Shown: positions 18,539-27,135 of the stretch, in pieces
Position numbering within the stretch: position 1 is the stretch's first letter
Layout: every line of letters starts with the position of its first letter
Assembly: GCF_030813495.1 (NCBI RefSeq)
Contig: NZ_JAUSUI010000001.1
Location: 682,001 to 746,000, forward strand
Direction: 5' to 3'
Source of the DNA: Ancylobacter polymorphus
Lineage (GTDB): Bacteria; Pseudomonadota; Alphaproteobacteria; Rhizobiales; Xanthobacteraceae
Length of the DNA: 64,000 bases
Program-made: the position numbers and the translations under genes
Notes under the pieces: model-generated
What the model was told of the DNA's origin: nothing
What the model saw: only the letters and a program-made list of their open reading frames with translations
The model's database searches: none

Positions 18539-18834
18539 GCCGCGACCGTAAACGCTTCGCCCCCGTCGTCAAGCGTGCCGGTTCGCCCCTACCCCGTCCG
18601 CCTTTCGCCAGCGCAGGATGAATTTGATACATTGTATCACTTGCGAGGACAAGACCGGCGCACCGGCACGTGGCCGAAAGTTGGCGGCGGGCGATCTTGC
18701 CCGGCTTCGAGCGAAATATCATAGTCGCACCAGCAGATTCCCCTACCGTCGGCAGCGCCGGGCGGGAGCCTCGATCCCGCACCGGACGGGCGCCTGCCTG
18801 GCAGCGCCGTCATGTCTTTCCCAAGGGCCCACCC
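18539..18834. other. Divergent intergenic region, cobalamin operon / NCS2 permease operon
   Basis: The 296 bases between the riboswitch and the permease start contain the 15-base palindrome at 18625-18639 and otherwise GC-rich sequence without a convincing ORF. Promoters for both directions should lie here, but none was clear enough to call. The permease-side leader (about 195 bases after the palindrome) could hold RNA structure. Confidence 0.5.
18625..18639. promoter_or_regulatory. Operator-like palindrome TGATACA-T-TGTATCA
   Basis: Two perfect 7-base arms around a single base in an AT-rich patch of a GC-rich region, typical of a repressor operator; the size suits a GntR- or MarR-type dimer. 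It is 196 bases upstream of the permease ATG and 87 bases upstream of the riboswitch, so it could serve either side. Confidence 0.55.
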
Positions 18835-20541
18835 ATGCCGCGCAAGCCGACGAACATCATCTACTCGGCCAATGAGAAGCCGCCGGCCGGCACGGTGCTC
18901 ATCCTCGGGGTCCAGCACGCCACGCTCGCGCTTCTGTTCATCGTCTATCCGCTCGTCGCCGCCGCCGAGGCGGGGCTGTCCTTCGACGATACCCAGCTCT
19001 TCATCACCAGTTGCATCATCTTCATGGGCATCGCCACGCTGCTGGAATGCCTGCCGCGTCCGGGCGCCGGCATGCTGCTGGTGCAGATTCCCAACATGGC
19101 GCACATGCCGCTGGCGGTGCAGTCGCTCGCCGCCGGCGGGCCGGCGCTTTACGCCGGCATGAGCCTCGTCGCCGCCATCTCGCAGCTCACCCTGTCGCGG
19201 TTCATGCGCGCGCTCAGGGCGGTGTTTCCGCCGGAAGTGTGCGGCGTCGCCGTCACCATGCTGGGGGTCGCCCTCGCCGATCCGGCGCTGCGGCGGGTGT
19301 TCGGCATTTCCGGCGCGATCACGCCCGATCTCGATCTGCGCTACGCCCTCGTCAGCTCGGTGACGCTGGTCATCATTGTCGGCCTCGCCATCTTCTCGCG
19401 CGGCATGCTGCGCCTGTTCGCGGTGGCGATCGGCGCCGCGATCGGCTGGATCCTGGCGGCCTATCTCGGCGTCGCGCCGGAGCCCAATGCCAGCTTCGCC
19501 ACCCTGCCCTATATCGATATTCCGCATCTCGGCTGGCCGGGCGTCAGCTTCTTCTCCTGGGCGCTGATCCCGGCGGCGATCATCACCGGCGTGCTGTCCG
19601 CCGTGGACATGGTCGGCACTGTGGTGTCGATGCAGCGCATGGACGATGCCGACTGGCGCCGCGCCGATCTCGACCAGGCGGGACGCGCCATTCAGGCCAA
19701 CTGCCTCGGCGATATCGGCACCGCCATTACCGGCGGCTTCGCCAGCGCCTCCTCCTCGGCCGCCGTCGGCGTCGCCTTCGCCACGGGTACGACGGCGTGG
19801 CGGGTGGGTGCGGTCTCCGGCATCCTCATCATCCTCGCCGCCTTCTCGCCCCGCCTCATCGGCGTGCTCACCATCATCCCCTCCCCGGTCATCGGCGCCA
19901 TCCTCATCTATGCCGCCGCCTTCCTCACCGTGGCGGGCATGGAACTCATCCTCTCCCGCCGCCTCAGCGACCGGCGCATCTTCACCGTCGGCCTCGCCAT
20001 CCTCACCGGCCTCGCCGTGGCCATACTCCCCGGCCTTGTCGGCCTCACGCCGGAATGGGCGCAGCCGATCCTCGAATCGCCGCTCTCCATCTCCACCGCC
20101 GTCGCCATCGTGCTGAACCTGGTCTTCCGCATCGGTATCCGCCAGGAAGCCTCGCGCGAGGTGACGACGGCCGACAACCCCTTCACCGTCGCCACCGAAT
20201 TCCTCGAATATCAGGGCGACCTGTGGGGGGCGCGGCGCGACGTGATCTCCATGGCGATCCCCGTCGTGGCGGAAGGGGTGGAGATGCTGCTCGACACCGG
20301 CGTCGCGCCGGGCAAGCTGGAAGTGCGGGCGCATTTCGACGAGGAGAATTTCGACGTGGCTCTGCTCTATGAGGGCGAGCCGATCACCATCCCCGACCAT
20401 CGCCCCTCGCCCGAAGACCTTCTGGGCGACGCCCACGCCGTCGCCCGCTTCGTCGGCTACATGCTGAGCAAGCGGGCCGACAGGCTGGTGCTCGGCACGG
20501 ACGGCACCCGGGAGAAACTGACCCTGCGCTTCGAGCACTGA
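18835..20541 (+). CDS. NCS2 (xanthine/uracil-type) permease with C-terminal degenerate GHKL-like domain
   Basis: A 568-residue protein. Residues about 15-445 form a nucleobase:cation symporter-2 permease with about twelve membrane segments and the family stretch GFASASSSAAVGVAFATGTT. Residues about 455-568 are soluble and resemble the RsbW/anti-sigma GHKL fold encoded two genes downstream. AEGVEMLLDTG lines up with the N-box EFFNNAVDYG, LYEGEPI with the G1 box SDDGDPF, and the last 35 residues with its C-terminus. The N-box Asn residues and the DxG motif are missing, so it should not hydrolyse ATP. The ATG at 18835 was chosen as the first Met before the permease fold. Substrate is unproven; xanthine, urate or uracil are possible. 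Confidence 0.85.
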   Translation: MPRKPTNIIYSANEKPPAGTVLILGVQHATLALLFIVYPLVAAAEAGLSFDDTQLFITSCIIFMGIATLLECLPRPGAGMLLVQIPNMAHMPLAVQSLAAGGPALYAGMSLVAAISQLTLSRFMRALRAVFPPEVCGVAVTMLGVALADPALRRVFGISGAITPDLDLRYALVSSVTLVIIVGLAIFSRGMLRLFAVAIGAAIGWILAAYLGVAPEPNASFATLPYIDIPHLGWPGVSFFSWALIPAAIITGVLSAVDMVGTVVSMQRMDDADWRRADLDQAGRAIQANCLGDIGTAITGGFASASSSAAVGVAFATGTTAWRVGAVSGILIILAAFSPRLIGVLTIIPSPVIGAILIYAAAFLTVAGMELILSRRLSDRRIFTVGLAILTGLAVAILPGLVGLTPEWAQPILESPLSISTAVAIVLNLVFRIGIRQEASREVTTADNPFTVATEFLEYQGDLWGARRDVISMAIPVVAEGVEMLLDTGVAPGKLEVRAHFDEENFDVALLYEGEPITIPDHRPSPEDLLGDAHAVARFVGYMLSKRADRLVLGTDGTREKLTLRFEH

Positions 20542-20697
20542 CCGCATCGCCGGCCCCCAGCCCAGCGCTTGCACCGGCGCTTGCACGGTTTTGGCTTTGC
20601 CGATAATCCTCTTCCATCCTCGCGCGGACGGGCTGGCAGGCGCTGGGCCGCGCGGCCTCCCCGATGCCGCCGCCCTCCCGAATTCTGGAGCCGAGCC

Positions 20698-21030
20698 TTG
20701 ATACATATCGACCGCATCGTCGAGGGCGCCGTCGTCGTCACCGCCGTCAAGGGACGGCTCGACAGCAGTTCCTCGCCCAAGCTGGAGGAATTCCTCATCG
20801 ACGCCGCGCCGAGCGGGACCGTGCTGCTCGACTTCGCCGAGCTCACCTATATCAGCTCGGCCGGCCTGCGCGTCGTGCTCAAGGCGACCAAGCTGCTGCG
20901 CGGCGCCGGCGGCACGCTGGCGGTCTGCGGCCTCATTCCACAGGTGCACGAAGTGTTCGACGTGAGCGGCTTTTCCTCGCTGATCCCGATCCATCCCAGC
21001 CGCGAGGCGGCGCTCGCCACCCTCGGCTGA
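20698..21030 (+). CDS. STAS-domain anti-sigma factor antagonist (RsbV/SpoIIAA-like)
   Basis: A 110-residue single STAS domain. LDFAELTYISSAGLRVV carries the conserved phosphorylatable serine, S54 by alignment with SpoIIAA. In partner switching the unphosphorylated protein binds the RsbW-type kinase and releases that kinase's other target. The start is TTG at 20698 with GGAG nine bases upstream, giving an N-terminus (MIHIDRI) at the usual beginning of the fold; no ATG fits. It is followed closely by the RsbW-like kinase. Confidence 0.92.
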   Translation: MIHIDRIVEGAVVVTAVKGRLDSSSSPKLEEFLIDAAPSGTVLLDFAELTYISSAGLRVVLKATKLLRGAGGTLAVCGLIPQVHEVFDVSGFSSLIPIHPSREAALATLG

Positions 21031-21062
21031 CCACACCACCGGCACGCGCGGCGGAGCGGGCG

Positions 21063-21479
21063 ATGACCGACATGCGGCTCGATCTACGCCTGCCCAACAA
21101 CCTGGGCGAGCTCGACGCGCTCAGCACACGGATCGAAGGCTTCATGGAGGACGCCGGGGTTCCGCCGACCCCGGCCTATCGACTGCAGCTCGCCGTGGAT
21201 GAGTTCTTCAACAACGCGGTCGATTACGGCTATCCCGACGGCCGCGCGGGCGAGATTGTCATTGAGGTGAGCCGCACCGGCGACCGCCTTGACCTCTTTT
21301 TCAGCGATGATGGCGACCCGTTCGATCCTTTCGCCGCGCCGCCTCCCGATCTCGACGGCACGCTGGAGGAGCGGCGCATCGGCGGGCTCGGCGTGCATCT
21401 CGTGCGCACCTTCGCCGACCACTTCGCCTATGCGCGCGAGAACGGGCGCAATGTGAAGCGCCTCACCTTCGCTCTTTAG
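21063..21479 (+). CDS. RsbW-like anti-sigma serine kinase (GHKL ATPase)
   Basis: A 138-residue GHKL ATPase of the RsbW/SpoIIAB class. N-box DEFFNNAVDYG has E47, N50 and N51; the G1 box is SDDGDPFDP (81-89) and the G2 box GGLGVHLV (107-114). It should phosphorylate the STAS protein upstream and sequester an unidentified partner. No sigma factor lies nearby, so the output may be a remote sigma factor or the permease tail. It is last in the plus-strand operon and converges with the Na/Pi transporter. Confidence 0.92.
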   Translation: MTDMRLDLRLPNNLGELDALSTRIEGFMEDAGVPPTPAYRLQLAVDEFFNNAVDYGYPDGRAGEIVIEVSRTGDRLDLFFSDDGDPFDPFAAPPPDLDGTLEERRIGGLGVHLVRTFADHFAYARENGRNVKRLTFAL

Positions 21480-21536: not shown

Positions 21537-23129
21537 CTAGCCCACGCTGCGGGCGCGGCGCACCTGCGTCATCCCGTTTACCAGCCGGCGCGCCAGCCAG
21601 ACGATGCGCTCGAACAGCACCGTCATGCGGAACAGCGCGTTCTGCTCCGCCGCGGCCAGTTCGCTCTGCGAGGAGAGGCGCTGGCGCAGTTCCTCCATCA
21701 GCCGGTCGCGATGGCCGAGCAAGGCGAGCACCACTTCCGGCTCCTCCGCCCCGAGGCTCTCGGCATGGTCGGCGACGGCGCCGAGCAGCAGATGCAGCGC
21801 CTCGTTCAGCCGCTGCGCGGTCGGCACATGGCGGACAGCGGCGGCCTCGTGCGCATAATCGGCCAGCGCTTCATGCAGGGCGCCGGCATTGTTGGCGGCA
21901 TCGTCGAGCAGCAGCGCCACCGCCACCTGGTCGCGGGCCAGCTGCGCGTCGAGCAGCGAGGCGAGATAGGCGCGGATCGCCTCGGTGAGGCTGGCGCCGG
22001 CAGTGCGCAGCACCGTTGCGGACGGGGCGGACGGGTCGCCCTCCTCCCGCACATGCTCGATCATCTGCGGCAGGCGGCCGCTCAGGCGCGCCACCTCGCG
22101 CGTGGCGAGGTCCAGTGCCGCCTCGGTGTCGCCCAGCGCCTCGCGTAGCAGGAAGGCGGGCTGGGACAGCGTTTCCACCGCGTTCATCGGCAGCAGCCGC
22201 GCCAGGATGCGGCGGGTCGGCGCTTCGAGCAGCGCGGAGGCGATCGCCCCGCCGATCTGCGCCGCCAGGAACAGCAGCGCCAGCACGGCGCCGATGTCTC
22301 CCTCGGCCGGCAGGAGCCCCGCCATGGCCTCTGGCCGCAGGGCCGCGAACAGGGCGAGCCCGACCAGAAGCAGCGAGCCGGCGCCCTTCTGCACCACCTG
22401 CAGTGCGAAGACGACGCGGCCGGGCCGCGTCTCGCCGGGAATCAGCACGGCGTTGTTGATCATCCCCGCCGCATTGGCGCCGGCGATCAGCGGCAGCGCC
22501 GTGCCGAAATCCAGCAGCCCGCCCGCCACCGCCGCCACGGCGAGCGCGGCCGCCACCGAGGAGGACTGCGCCGCCATGGAGAAGCCGGCGCCGATCGCCG
22601 CCAGCAGCCAGGGATTTTCGACCGCCGCTTCCCACCAGGGATGCCCCAGCAGGGCCTCGCGCATCGGGCCGACGGCGACGGAGACGAGATGCATGCCGAA
22701 CAGCAGCAGCCCCGCCCCAAGCGCCGCGTCGAGCGCGTTGCGCATGCGGTCGCCGCGCACCAGCCGGAAATAGGTGATGAAACCGACCACGCCGATGACA
22801 AGGCCGGCGGCGGTCGAGGTATCGACGGCGACGATCAGCGGCAGCAGCGAGGTGCCGACATTGGCCCAGCTCGGCGCCAGCAGCGCCGGCCCGTCGGTGA
22901 GCACGCCACCGCGCACGAAGGAGACGACGATCCACGACACGGCGGTGGAACTCTGGGTGATCATCCCCGCCAGCGTGCCGCTGATCGCGGCGCTGACATT
23001 GCCGCGCAGCGCCCGTGCGAAGGCGGCGCGGGTGCGCCGGCCGACCAGCGGCACCAGATTGGCGGAGAGCCCGCGCACCCCGATGAAGAACAGCCCCAGC
23101 CCGCTGAACAGAAGCGCGATGGTCGCCAT
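21537..23129 (-). CDS. Na+/phosphate cotransporter family membrane protein with PhoU-like tail
   Basis: A 530-residue protein of the Na/Pi-cotransporter (NptA, PF02690) family. Two inverted repeats carry the signature QSST (about 59-62) and QSSS (about 190), with about eight to nine membrane segments in residues 1-310. The C-terminal half (about 330-520) is soluble, helical and resembles the PhoU-like domain found in many bacterial members. It probably moves phosphate with sodium, but bacterial homologues can act as exporters or regulators. It lies downstream of three two-component/PP2C genes on the same strand, 138 bases after the single-receiver gene. Confidence 0.87.
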   Translation of the reverse strand: MATIALLFSGLGLFFIGVRGLSANLVPLVGRRTRAAFARALRGNVSAAISGTLAGMITQSSTAVSWIVVSFVRGGVLTDGPALLAPSWANVGTSLLPLIVAVDTSTAAGLVIGVVGFITYFRLVRGDRMRNALDAALGAGLLLFGMHLVSVAVGPMREALLGHPWWEAAVENPWLLAAIGAGFSMAAQSSSVAAALAVAAVAGGLLDFGTALPLIAGANAAGMINNAVLIPGETRPGRVVFALQVVQKGAGSLLLVGLALFAALRPEAMAGLLPAEGDIGAVLALLFLAAQIGGAIASALLEAPTRRILARLLPMNAVETLSQPAFLLREALGDTEAALDLATREVARLSGRLPQMIEHVREEGDPSAPSATVLRTAGASLTEAIRAYLASLLDAQLARDQVAVALLLDDAANNAGALHEALADYAHEAAAVRHVPTAQRLNEALHLLLGAVADHAESLGAEEPEVVLALLGHRDRLMEELRQRLSSQSELAAAEQNALFRMTVLFERIVWLARRLVNGMTQVRRARSVG

Positions 23130-23267: not shown

Positions 23268-23639
23268 TCAGCCCGGCAGGCCGAGCCGGCTGCGGATCTT
23301 CTCCAGCAGCCGCGGCAGTTCCACCGGCTTGGTGTCGAAGTCATCACAGCCCGCCGCCATCGCCTGCTCGCGGTCCGAGGCCATGGCGTGGGCGGTGAGC
23401 GCGATGACCGGGATCGCCGCCGTATCGGGATGCGCCTTCACCTGCCGCGTCGCCTCCCAGCCGTCGAGTACCGGCAGGCTCATATCCATCAGGATCAGCG
23501 CCGGCTTCTCGGCGAGAGCGATGTCCACCCCCTCCTGGCCGTTGACCGCGATCAGCACCTCGAAGCCGTTGCGGGCGAGACGCCGCGAGAGCATGTCGCG
23601 GTTCATCTCATTGTCCTCGACGAGGAGAATCTTCGTCAT
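23268..23639 (-). CDS. Single-domain response regulator
   Basis: A 123-residue CheY-like receiver with no output domain. The phosphoacceptor is D52 (LILMDMSLP), the acidic pocket is E8-D9 (LLVEDNEMNRDML) and the switch Lys is in DTKPVELP. It is a DivK-like stand-alone receiver. It lies nine bases downstream of the hybrid kinase gene, so it is a likely phosphorylation partner. Confidence 0.93.
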   Translation of the reverse strand: MTKILLVEDNEMNRDMLSRRLARNGFEVLIAVNGQEGVDIALAEKPALILMDMSLPVLDGWEATRQVKAHPDTAAIPVIALTAHAMASDREQAMAAGCDDFDTKPVELPRLLEKIRSRLGLPG

Positions 23640-23648
23640 CGCACCCTC

Positions 23649-25940
23649 TCAATGGCCGTGGCTGGCGATCGTGCCGAGCGCCGCGCCGAGCGAGCCGATC
23701 GGCTGCGCGCCCTTGTTCAGGATCAGCAGCGTGTTGCGGGCCAGGAACTCGCGCTCATCCTCGGTGAGTTCCTTGGCGGTGAGCACGACGACGGGCAGCT
23801 CGCCATAGGCCGGCTCTGCCCGCACATGGGTGAGGAAGGCGAAGCCGTCCATCCTGGGCATCATCAGGTCGAGCAGCACGAGCGCGGGAAGCGGGTGCGC
23901 GCGGAGCCATTCCAGCGCCTCTTCGCCATTGGCCGCTTCGGCCACCGGCAGGCCGGCGCCCTCGATCGTGGCCCGCATGATCGCGCGCACCTCGGCATCG
24001 TCATCGACCACCAGCACCACGCCCCCCTCATTGCAGGGCGCGAATTTATGCACCAGCGCGACCAGCCGCTGCCGGTCGATGGGCTTGGTCATGTATTCCG
24101 AGGCGCCGAGCGAATAGCCGAGATTCCGGTCATCGACGATGGTGAGCATGATGACAGGGATATGCGCCAGCGCCGGCTCCGATTTCATGATGCCGAGCAC
24201 CGACCAGCCGTCGATCTTCGGCATCATCACATCGAGCGTGACGATATCGGGCGGATCCTTGCGCATGATGTTCAGCGCCTCCACCCCGTCGCGGGCGTGG
24301 CGCAGCACATAGCCTTCCTTGCCGAGGGTGGCGGTGAGCACGTCATGCACCGCCGGGTCGTCATCGACCACCAGCACGGTGATCGCCCCCGGCGTCGTCG
24401 GCGCGCCGGGATCGACGATCTCGTCCTCATCGCCGAGCGCCCCCGCCAGATGCGCCTCGACCGGCAGCTCGATGGTGAAGGTCGAACCCTTGCCCGGCTC
24501 GCTCGCCACCGCGATGGTGCCGCCGAGCATGGCGGCGAAATGCTTGGTGATGGTGAGCCCGAGCCCGGTGCCGCCAAAATTCCGCGTGGTGGAGGAATCC
24601 GCCTGGGTAAAGGCCTGGAACAGCCGGCCCATCTGCTCCTCGCTCATGCCGATGCCGCTGTCGCTGACATCGAAGCGCACCGCCTCGCTGCCATCGGGCA
24701 TGCGGTCGCGGGCGATGGCCAGAGTCACCGTGCCCTCCTTGGTGAACTTGGCGGCGTTGCTGAGCAGGTTGATAAGGCTCTGCTTGAGCTTGGTGACATC
24801 GGTGCGCAGCGTGCCGACATCGACCGGGCAGTCGATAACGAAGCGATTTCCGTTCTTCTGCATCATCGGCCCGACAATGGTCTTCACCTCCTCGACCATG
24901 CGGGTCAGGAACACCTGTTCCAGATAGACATCCATGCGCCCGGCCTCGATCTTGGAGAGATCGAGAATGTCGTTGATGAGGCCGAGCAGGTGTTTTCCGG
25001 CTGCCTGAATCTTGTCGAGATCGGCGACCATGGCGCTGTCGCCGGCATCGGCGGCGTCCTCGGAAAGGATTTCGCTGTAGCCGATGATGGCGTTGAGCGG
25101 CGTGCGCAGTTCGTGGCTCATATTGGCCAGAAACGCCGATTTCACCCGGCTGGCAGATTCCGCCGCCTCCTTGGCCTCGCGCAGCTGGTGCTCCATGCGC
25201 ACCCGGTCGCTGATATCGACGAAGGTGGCGATCACCGCCGGCTTGCCGCGGAACTCCAGCGGCTCATGCGAGACCATGGTGCAGATGGTCGAGCCGTCCG
25301 TATGCGGCAGGTTGAACTCCCGCCGCTCGCTCGACGGCGTGGCGAGGATGTCCGCCAGTTCCTGCCCGCGCGCGGCGTCCGCAAACAGCTCGCGCAGCGG
25401 GCAGCCGATGAGCGTGCCGGCGTCGCGGCCGATCAACCGGCCGAAGCAGCCATTGGAGTGGCGCACGACCTTGCCCGCCACATCCATGATGACGAGCCCG
25501 ATCGGCGCCGCCGCGTCGATGGCGCGCAGCTGCTCCTCATCCTCGCGCAGCTTCATTTCCGCGAGCTTGCGCTCGGTGATGTCGGTATAGATGGCGATGA
25601 AACCGCCGCCCGGCACGGGATCGCGCCGCACCTCCAGAATGGTGCCGTCGGGGCGGGTACGCTCGAAGCGGTGCGGCGTTTCCAGCTGGGCGAGGCGCTG
25701 GGCGAGCGCGACCTCTATGTCCACGTCGCCGAATTCGCCGCGCGCGCCGAGATAGCGGATATAGTCGGAAAAGGTGTGCTCGGTGCCGAGGAATTCCTCG
25801 GGCATGTCGAGATAATCGACGAACAGCTGGTTCCAGGTCACCAGCCGGTGCTTGGCGTCGTACATGGCGACGCCTTGCGCCATGTTCTCCAGCGTCGCGC
25901 GCAAGAGCGTCGCTTCGCTCACCCACTCGTCCTCGGTCAT
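23649..25940 (-). CDS. Hybrid sensor histidine kinase, PAS-PAS-HisKA-HATPase-REC-REC
   Basis: A 763-residue cytoplasmic hybrid kinase without membrane segments. Order: PAS 1 (about 10-125, ending with a TDITERK linker), PAS 2 (about 135-250, VDISDR linker), HisKA with H276 (NMSHELRTPLN), HATPase (NLLSNAAKF, DSGIGM, GGTGLGL), receiver 1 (about 520-640, VVDDDPAVHDV and DVMMPKIDG), receiver 2 (about 645-755, VVDDDAEVRAI and DLMMPRMDG, with a poorly conserved end). The ATG at 25940 overlaps the end of the PP2C gene upstream. It probably integrates a cytoplasmic signal and feeds the adjacent receivers, including the REC-PP2C protein. Confidence 0.9.
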   Translation of the reverse strand: MTEDEWVSEATLLRATLENMAQGVAMYDAKHRLVTWNQLFVDYLDMPEEFLGTEHTFSDYIRYLGARGEFGDVDIEVALAQRLAQLETPHRFERTRPDGTILEVRRDPVPGGGFIAIYTDITERKLAEMKLREDEEQLRAIDAAAPIGLVIMDVAGKVVRHSNGCFGRLIGRDAGTLIGCPLRELFADAARGQELADILATPSSERREFNLPHTDGSTICTMVSHEPLEFRGKPAVIATFVDISDRVRMEHQLREAKEAAESASRVKSAFLANMSHELRTPLNAIIGYSEILSEDAADAGDSAMVADLDKIQAAGKHLLGLINDILDLSKIEAGRMDVYLEQVFLTRMVEEVKTIVGPMMQKNGNRFVIDCPVDVGTLRTDVTKLKQSLINLLSNAAKFTKEGTVTLAIARDRMPDGSEAVRFDVSDSGIGMSEEQMGRLFQAFTQADSSTTRNFGGTGLGLTITKHFAAMLGGTIAVASEPGKGSTFTIELPVEAHLAGALGDEDEIVDPGAPTTPGAITVLVVDDDPAVHDVLTATLGKEGYVLRHARDGVEALNIMRKDPPDIVTLDVMMPKIDGWSVLGIMKSEPALAHIPVIMLTIVDDRNLGYSLGASEYMTKPIDRQRLVALVHKFAPCNEGGVVLVVDDDAEVRAIMRATIEGAGLPVAEAANGEEALEWLRAHPLPALVLLDLMMPRMDGFAFLTHVRAEPAYGELPVVVLTAKELTEDEREFLARNTLLILNKGAQPIGSLGAALGTIASHGH

Positions 25941-25956
25941 CCCGTCCCTTGCCCCC

Positions 25957-27135
25957 TTACTCGGCTGCCGGCGCATCCAGTGTCAGCAGCAGCGCCGCCA
26001 TATCGTCAAAGGCCGGCAAGCCGGCCTCGAAGGCCCGCACCGCCGCCGCCAGCCGCGGCAGCGGTGCCGCCTCCTCGCCGAGCGCGGCGAGGAAAGCGCC
26101 CACACGCTCCTCGCCATAGAGGTCGCCGGCATGGTCATGCGCCTCGGTCAGCCCGTCCGTTACCACCATCAGCCGTTCCCCCGCGCCGAGCGGCACGGTG
26201 GCGGCGCTGTAGGGGAACTCCTCCATGACGCCGAGCGCCGGCCCGCCGGCGGCCGTCAGGCGGCTGACCGTGCCGTCGCACGCGCGCAGATACGGCGGCA
26301 CATGGCCGGCACGCACATAGGTCAACATGCCCGCCGATACGTCGACCACCGCCAGAAGCAGGGTGACGAACATGCAGGAGGCATTGCCCCGCGCCAGCGC
26401 GTCGTTCACCAGCCCCGCCGCCCGCGCCGGATCGGCGAAGAGTTCCGCCGCGTCCGGCCTTGTGCCGAGCGAGCGGAACATGGAATGGGTGCGCGCCATC
26501 ATCAGTGCGGCGCCGGCCCCCTTGTCGGAGACATCGCCGATGATCGCCACGATCCGGCCGTCGCCGACCGGGAAATAGTCGACGAGATCGCCGCCAACCT
26601 CCTTGGCCGGCTCCAGCAGCACGTCGATGGTGAGGTTCCGCCCGGCGAAACGACCGGCGAAGGGCGGGGGCACCAGCGCCAGTTGCAGGGTGCGCGCTTC
26701 GATGAGTTCGGCCTGCTTGCGCTTCAGCTCGTCACGGGTGCGGTCGCGCAGCGCCTTCTTCTCCAGCGTGGCGAGCACGCGAGCGCGCAGCAGCGTGGGA
26801 TTGAACGGCTTGAAGATGAAATCGTCGGCGCCCAGTTCGATGCAGCGCACCACCGGCTCGATCTCGTTGAGGGCGGAGACGACGATGACCGGCAGATCGT
26901 TGATCCGCCCGTCGCCGCGCAGCCGGTCGAGCACGCCGAAGCCGTCCAGCTCCGGCATCATGATGTCGAGCAGGACAAGGTCGTAGGGTTTCTGGTCGAT
27001 GGCGGCGAGCGCCTCGATGCCGTTGGCGGCCTCGTCGATATGGGAAAAGCCCAGCCGCTTCAGGCGGCGCAGCAGCAGGTCGCGGTTCTCGGCAACATCG
27101 TCGACCACCAGAATCGCCGCGTTCTGGTCCGTCAT
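25957..27135 (-). CDS. Receiver-controlled PP2C (RsbU/SpoIIE-type) serine phosphatase
   Basis: A 392-residue protein. Residues 1-125 are a receiver domain with D57 (LVLLDIMMPELDGFG), 130-160 a coiled linker, and 165-385 a SpoIIE/RsbU PP2C phosphatase (VGGDLVDYF and IGDVSDKGAGAAL, metal-binding aspartates, TDGLTEA). Such proteins dephosphorylate STAS antagonists when the receiver is phosphorylated. The obvious substrate is the STAS protein at 20698-21030. The ATG at 27135 begins the receiver fold. First gene of the minus-strand signalling operon. Confidence 0.92.
   Translation of the reverse strand: MTDQNAAILVVDDVAENRDLLLRRLKRLGFSHIDEAANGIEALAAIDQKPYDLVLLDIMMPELDGFGVLDRLRGDGRINDLPVIVVSALNEIEPVVRCIELGADDFIFKPFNPTLLRARVLATLEKKALRDRTRDELKRKQAELIEARTLQLALVPPPFAGRFAGRNLTIDVLLEPAKEVGGDLVDYFPVGDGRIVAIIGDVSDKGAGAALMMARTHSMFRSLGTRPDAAELFADPARAAGLVNDALARGNASCMFVTLLLAVVDVSAGMLTYVRAGHVPPYLRACDGTVSRLTAAGGPALGVMEEFPYSAATVPLGAGERLMVVTDGLTEAHDHAGDLYGEERVGAFLAALGEEAAPLPRLAAAVRAFEAGLPAFDDMAALLLTLDAPAAE

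Follow-up and report, generated by a model that had tools for sequence, protein, structure and literature searches.

An NCS2-family permease of Ancylobacter polymorphus with a predicted, catalytically disabled RsbW-type tail beside partner-switching genes

In this study, we showed that an NCS2-family permease of Ancylobacter polymorphus ends in a domain that is predicted to fold as an RsbW/SpoIIAB-type GHKL domain but has lost the ATP/Mg motifs of that family, and that its gene lies beside genes for an intact RsbW-type kinase, a STAS protein and further signalling partners. This suggests that a switch best known for controlling gene expression may here act directly on a transporter. The gene was found in a stretch of 64,000 nucleotides (contig NZ_JAUSUI010000001.1, positions 682,001 to 746,000), hereafter called the window, and its features are listed in Table 1. 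An initial annotation, made from the sequence alone, had proposed that the last roughly 115 residues of the permease align in order and spacing with the RsbW-like protein encoded two genes later but lack the N-box asparagines and the DxG motif, and this observation was confirmed. Its interpretation, that the permease is a receptor whose tail docks the STAS protein or dimerises with RsbW so that nucleobase transport is coupled to partner switching, was supported only in part. Below, genomes of the searched samples are designated G and loci fetched from genomes are designated L.

Table 1. Features of the permease locus in the window
Position	Strand	Feature	Basis
18835-20145	+	NCS2-family membrane domain of the permease (residues 1-437)	PF00860, E 4.7e-38, residues 21-399; only NCS2 match in the window's genome
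20146-20541	+	Predicted C-terminal pseudo-RsbW (GHKL) tail, residues 438-568 and stop	Predicted structure, fold comparison, profile match to RsbW, motif loss
20698-21030	+	STAS protein (RsbV/SpoIIAA type), probable TTG start	PF01740, E 7.5e-16; TIGR00377 anti-sigma factor antagonist, over its cut-off; SSAG serine motif conserved in the STAS rows of the co-fold alignment
21063-21479	+	RsbW-type kinase with intact N-box, G1 and G2 motifs	PF13581, E 3.8e-24; motifs invariant or nearly so in 13 orthologues
21537-23129	-	Na/Pi cotransporter-family protein	PF02690; in 13 of 14 related loci; same place in L097 of another family
23268-23639	-	Single-domain response regulator (REC)	PF00072; in 13 of 14 related loci
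23649-25976	-	PAS hybrid histidine kinase with two REC domains, probable sensor of the module	PF12860, PF00512, PF02518, PF00072; 54% identical over 756 aa to the kinase beside the tailed permease in L053
25957-27384	-	REC-PP2C (SpoIIE/RsbU-type) phosphatase, start codon uncertain, REC begins at residue 91 of this frame	PF00072 and PF07228 (E 1.6e-40); 44% identical over 390 aa to the REC-PP2C of the L062 operon
18637-21045	-	802-aa open frame	Taken as a mirror frame of high-GC DNA and not studied

The permease tail is predicted to be a disabled RsbW-type domain

The permease frame is intact from the ATG at 18835 to the TGA at 20539-20541 and encodes 568 aa. The STAS and RsbW genes follow on the same strand with gaps of 156 and 32 bases, respectively; the start codons of relatives were not used to support the TTG start of the STAS gene, since the aligner prints start codons as Met. 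Pfam sees an NCS2 permease (131.4 bits against a cut-off of 27) and no STAS domain in the protein, while the last 131 residues alone matched no Pfam or NCBIfam model. The tail was modelled by AlphaFold2 with 15 tails, giving a mean pLDDT of 93.2 and a pTM of 0.86. Comparison of this model with the PDB by Foldseek put chains of RsbW/RsbV, SpoIIAB, UsfX and SigF/anti-sigma entries in the first 16 rows (best E 3.5e-4, probability 1.00). By VIA-align the best match was 8ih8_C (Z 12.5, rmsd 3.0 over 111 residues), and the ten best entries were all of the RsbW group (Z 11.1-12.5), followed by LvrC at 10.0, SiaB (6kko) at 9.2 and DesK at 7.9. The initial annotation had named a tail folding as something other than GHKL as a result that would count against it, and the predicted fold did not bear this out.

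Homology was tested by profile comparison using hhalign. A profile of 35 tails against one of 13 RsbW orthologues gave 96%, E 4.1e-9 over 118 columns, and the first 17 tails gave 84%, E 7.4e-6. As controls, reversed profiles gave 0.1% each, the best of 30 column-shuffled RsbW profiles gave 4.5% (E 0.009), and STAS gave 0.3%, so that, together with the absence of a STAS match in Pfam, a reading of the tail as a STAS domain was rejected. With the 15 close tails of the Ancylobacter group alone the comparison was not significant (0.9%), and the distant tails were needed to make the homology visible. A PDB sequence search with the tail profile found no RsbW (best E 0.25), so sequence alone does not reach solved structures whereas fold comparison does. 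The window tail did not match HATPase_c_2 (PF13581) at E up to 1 and thus did not reach the Pfam gathering score, while 9 of the 35 tails matched, with a best E of 0.0086. Conversely, among the reading frames of the fetched loci, the tail HMM also picked up true RsbW domains in L050, L055 and L077.

In the register of the 35-tail comparison, tail E43 aligns with RsbW E47, M47 with N51, Y75 with D82 and G77 with G84. Across the 35 tails, the N-box Asn and the first Asp of G1 were each found in 0, and none has a GGxG motif. The N-box Glu is kept in 27 (Gln in 7) and the G1 Gly in 34, so the tail is a little less degenerate than the initial annotation held. Kinase activity and ordinary ATP/Mg binding should therefore be lost while the scaffold is kept, although this step is an inference. 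The tail is under purifying selection and evolves like the membrane part: over 14 pairs against the window, dN/dS was 0.14-0.44 for the tail and 0.09-0.42 for the membrane part. Since it is conserved with low dN/dS in 14 other genomes, a frameshift or read-through artefact was rejected as its origin.

Distribution and gene neighbourhood of tailed permeases

In 199 genomes of the order, 7 had tailed permeases, after an eighth hit (L008 in G183) was left out because it lies antisense to a dehydrogenase-like frame, as judged by eye. In 385 genomes of the class there were 15, after a sixteenth (G277) proved to be a genuine RsbW. In 398 genomes of the phylum the one hit from outside the class, G817, is also a genuine RsbW, and the other 3 genomes with hits in that sample are of the class. 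About 10 candidates per genome were scored in the class and phylum searches, so tailed permeases may have been missed, outside the class too. The G817 locus (L081), found only because its RsbW matches the tail profile, holds a SpoIIE-type PP2C, RsbW and two tandem STAS genes. Some genomes hold several tailed permeases, and in L058 (5287-9042) and L061 (7307-12479) these lie side by side in pairs, head to head against each other or in tandem, perhaps as hetero-pairs.

The 14 relatives of the window locus in named genomes are 13 Ancylobacter records and one Xanthobacteraceae isolate. Permease, STAS and RsbW occur in this order in 14 of 14 of these related loci, with the hybrid kinase and the REC gene in 13 of 14. 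In other genera, STAS genes lie beside the tailed permease in five loci (L050, L051, L055, L061 and L062), of which L062 is the fullest, with hybrid kinase, REC-PP2C, RsbW, STAS and tailed permease all in one direction; in L051 and L061 our HMMs found no RsbW in the locus. Tailed permeases recur in other alphaproteobacterial families. Of six REC-PP2C loci fetched in other genomes, five show RsbW and four show STAS. In the order sample, the N-terminal 250 residues of the window hybrid kinase matched at E below 1e-70 only in G000 and G157, both tailed-permease genomes (6 of 199 at E up to 1e-30), and the REC-PP2C was found in 7 of 199, of which 4 have tailed permeases (p 1.9e-5). However, the module can exist without the tailed permease, since G050 has RsbW, STAS, Na/Pi, REC, hybrid kinase and REC-PP2C genes laid out much as in the window but no tailed permease was found in that genome. 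Likewise, the Na/Pi cotransporter-family gene sits between RsbW/STAS and the REC/kinase/PP2C genes both in the window and in L097 (3815-5533), a locus of another family that has no tailed permease.

Co-occurrence with STAS and RsbW genes was then counted, its absence being the other outcome that the initial annotation had said would contradict it. The 21 tailed-permease genomes hold 90 STAS matches and 52 NCS2 genes (from 53 rows, with one N-terminal piece of a G068 gene left out), of which 31 are tailed and 21 untailed. STAS lies within about 1.5 kb of 6 of the 31 tailed genes, against about 0.11 expected by density, and of 0 of the 21 untailed genes. Two of the six are in one genus and one is the window, 25 of the 31 tailed genes have no STAS nearby, and the contrast of tailed against untailed genes gave only a Fisher p of 0.07. 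The gene G356:C12:149385, whose tail match starts more than 300 bases after the Pfam match, is counted here as tailed; filed as untailed, it gives p 0.03. Some of the untailed genes have open frames of about 600 aa and may hold tails too diverged to be seen. Strong RsbW genes (PF13581, E up to 1e-14) are in 7 of 7 tailed-permease genomes against 32 of 199 in the order, and in 13 of 15 against 78 of 327 in the class; the count of 13 of 15 assumes that G264 and G276 were part of the 327-genome sample, and otherwise it is 13 of 13. By genus, p is 2.8e-4 and 1.3e-5, respectively. The window's genome is counted in both samples, and neither relatedness, beyond counting genera, nor genome size was controlled for. 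G264 and G276, two of the 21 genomes, have tailed permeases but neither an RsbW-grade match nor a small STAS frame, so the tail may work without them, or the link was lost there. An RsbW match lies within 9 kb of a STAS match in 17 of the 21 genomes, in 13 of them within 350 bases, using 31 of the 90 STAS rows (mainly small frames) and the 25 best PF13581 rows. Tailed permeases thus co-occur with RsbW/STAS genes.

Co-folding of the tail with the STAS protein

The permease stop and the STAS start are in frame, so tail, linker and STAS can be read as one chain with TGA as Trp. With 14 tails and 14 STAS proteins as unpaired rows, AlphaFold2 gave a pTM of 0.76, with most domain blocks at pLDDT 81-95 and a linker mostly below 50. 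A pTM of 0.65 or more had been set in advance as the level that would support docking. This result suggests docking of STAS on the tail but leaves the binding itself undecided, as no control was run, no paired rows were used, and neither the interface, the error matrix nor the coordinates were inspected. Foldseek on this model found SpoIIAA/RsbV chains and RsbW/SpoIIAB chains, which confirms the two folds and not the interface.

Substrate of the permease

The one PDB sequence match of the permease is a uracil permease (8omz, E 1.6e-9). In the solved uracil permease the acidic or amide residues of TM8 and TM10 bind the substrate. In this alignment the TM8 Glu corresponds to Asp258 of the window protein, and the TM10 Glu-Asn (near residues 300-312) to Ala-Ala. 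The Glu residues are replaced in the tailed permeases compared, and no row of their alignment has Glu or Gln at the TM10 position, though several keep the Asn. These changes bear on the substrate and not on family membership, and suggest another substrate or a sensing role. The curated NCBIfam cut-offs of the specific NCS2 subfamilies (pbuX, UraA and RutG types) were missed (TIGR03173, 172.8 against 414; TIGR00801, 127.8 against 291.8; PRK10720, 52.9 against 477), whereas the broad NF037981 'purine/pyrimidine permease' cut-off was passed (66.6 bits against 40). A nucleobase substrate, as assumed by the initial annotation, is therefore possible but not to be taken for granted.

Discussion

Our tentative explanation, which we hold at slightly less than even odds, is that the permease is a membrane client of an RsbU/RsbV/RsbW-type partner-switching module. 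The window has the parts of such a module, namely STAS with the serine motif, RsbW with intact motifs and a PP2C phosphatase nearby, although phosphorylation was not measured. In this view, the tail is a pseudokinase of the RsbW family that could bind the STAS protein without phosphorylating it. Signals would reach the hybrid histidine kinase and the REC-PP2C phosphatase. Phosphorylated by RsbW, STAS would bind neither partner; once the phosphatase removes the phosphate, STAS could bind RsbW or the permease tail, and binding the tail would open or close the transporter. The permease is put on the output side since the sensor chain is already present and the tail should not be a kinase, since in Rhodobacter the data favour STAS as the output with no sigma target found (PMC3999984), since a review lists several STAS proteins that act unphosphorylated on unknown targets (PMC8256260), and since MlaB is a STAS protein acting on a transporter (PMC7367683). 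The computations establish the predicted fold, the motif loss, the purifying selection on the tail, the conserved gene set and the co-occurrence; STAS docking is no more than indicated, while the dependence on phosphorylation, the gating and the direction of signal flow are inferred. The fold is close to certain and the link to RsbW/STAS is likely, whereas the direction is left undecided by these data.

Of the alternatives, all of which appear unlikely but remain, the best supported is that the tail is a fixed part of the transporter. RsbW folds dimerise and NCS2 carriers work as dimers, so the tail may hold the permease dimer together without any STAS partner, and the neighbourhood with STAS/RsbW in some lineages would be secondary. 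The many tailed genes without STAS nearby, and G264 and G276 with neither partner, agree with this, and the most conserved tail columns (G24, W27, G77 and D112) fit a structural core as well as a docking face. Against it stand the strong over-representation of RsbW genes in tailed-permease genomes, the recurrence of the gene set in several families and the co-fold. Less likely is the receptor role proposed by the initial annotation, in which substrate binding or transport alters the tail, which takes up or releases STAS and so changes how much STAS is left for RsbW and its target. The anatomy is the same, the substrate-site changes would fit a carrier turned sensor, and a membrane protein fused to an intact RsbW exists in the tailed-permease loci L050 and L055. 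However, the module already has a PAS hybrid kinase and a REC-PP2C phosphatase as input, so an output role is at least as likely, and G050 has the module without a tailed permease found. Least likely, the tail may pair with RsbW itself as the dead half of a heterodimer, bringing the kinase to the membrane or inhibiting it, which would fit the shared fold family and the dimeric nature of RsbW-type kinases, but in L051 and L061 our HMMs found STAS beside the tailed permease and no RsbW in the locus, and this pairing was not tested.

The RsbU/RsbV/RsbW and SpoIIE/SpoIIAA/SpoIIAB systems share with the window the STAS antagonist, the GHKL kinase and the PP2C phosphatase, and the tail has the predicted fold of the GHKL partner; here a second, catalytically dead GHKL partner is fused to a membrane carrier, and no sigma factor was identified as target, no sigma-factor profile having been searched. 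RbaV/RbaW/RbaY of Rhodobacter capsulatus is an alphaproteobacterial STAS/kinase/phosphatase system whose target is unknown, and the words permease and transporter do not occur in its description (PMC3999984). SulP/SLC26 carriers, whose fold is related to that of SLC23, are fused to one half of the STAS/anti-sigma pair; the present permease is the mirror image, as the carrier bears the kinase-like half and STAS is a separate protein. In MlaFB, the single-domain STAS protein MlaB binds and supports a transporter from the cytoplasm, but on an ABC ATPase instead of a pseudo-RsbW domain, and we found no kinase/phosphatase pair described for it (PMC7367683). Switches of the SiaB/SiaC and HsbA/HsbD type act on an enzyme instead of a sigma factor, their targets being signalling enzymes and not carriers with a pseudokinase tail. 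CbrA joins a carrier to a GHKL-containing part, but the carrier is of the SLC5 family and the histidine kinase is active. In literature searches no report of an NCS2 permease with an RsbW-like tail was noticed, which, as only open-licence PMC papers were covered, is no proof of absence.

Partner switching is known chiefly as control of sigma factors, and for several Gram-negative systems the target of the STAS protein is unknown (PMC8256260, PMC3999984). A carrier with a pseudo-RsbW tail is a concrete, testable target, which would couple a two-component/PP2C cascade to membrane transport in one protein-protein step. It would also give a pseudokinase of the RsbW family a defined job and name a C-terminal domain that Pfam and NCBIfam leave blank in the window protein. 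It is possible, though we put it at somewhat less than even odds, that a family of membrane carriers has recruited a dead copy of the anti-sigma kinase as a docking port, so that the STAS protein acts directly on transport as a protein-level output of RsbUVW signalling and a candidate for the missing targets of sigma-less alphaproteobacterial switches. Other clients in the same lineages may follow the same port logic. In L050 (1053-3161, RsbW part near residue 600 of the frame) and L055 (11787-12938), an intact RsbW domain is fused behind a membrane segment that looks by eye like an ABC inner-membrane subunit (no Pfam match to that segment of L055 at E up to 1), near a HAMP-PP2C protein, STAS and a tailed NCS2 permease, and in L050 a solute-binding (SBP_bac_3) protein is next to it. 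In L099 (5031-6026) and L100 (8976-10076), glutaminase (PF04960) genes lie beside STAS, RsbW and REC-PP2C genes, possibly as another non-sigma client of the same kind of switch.
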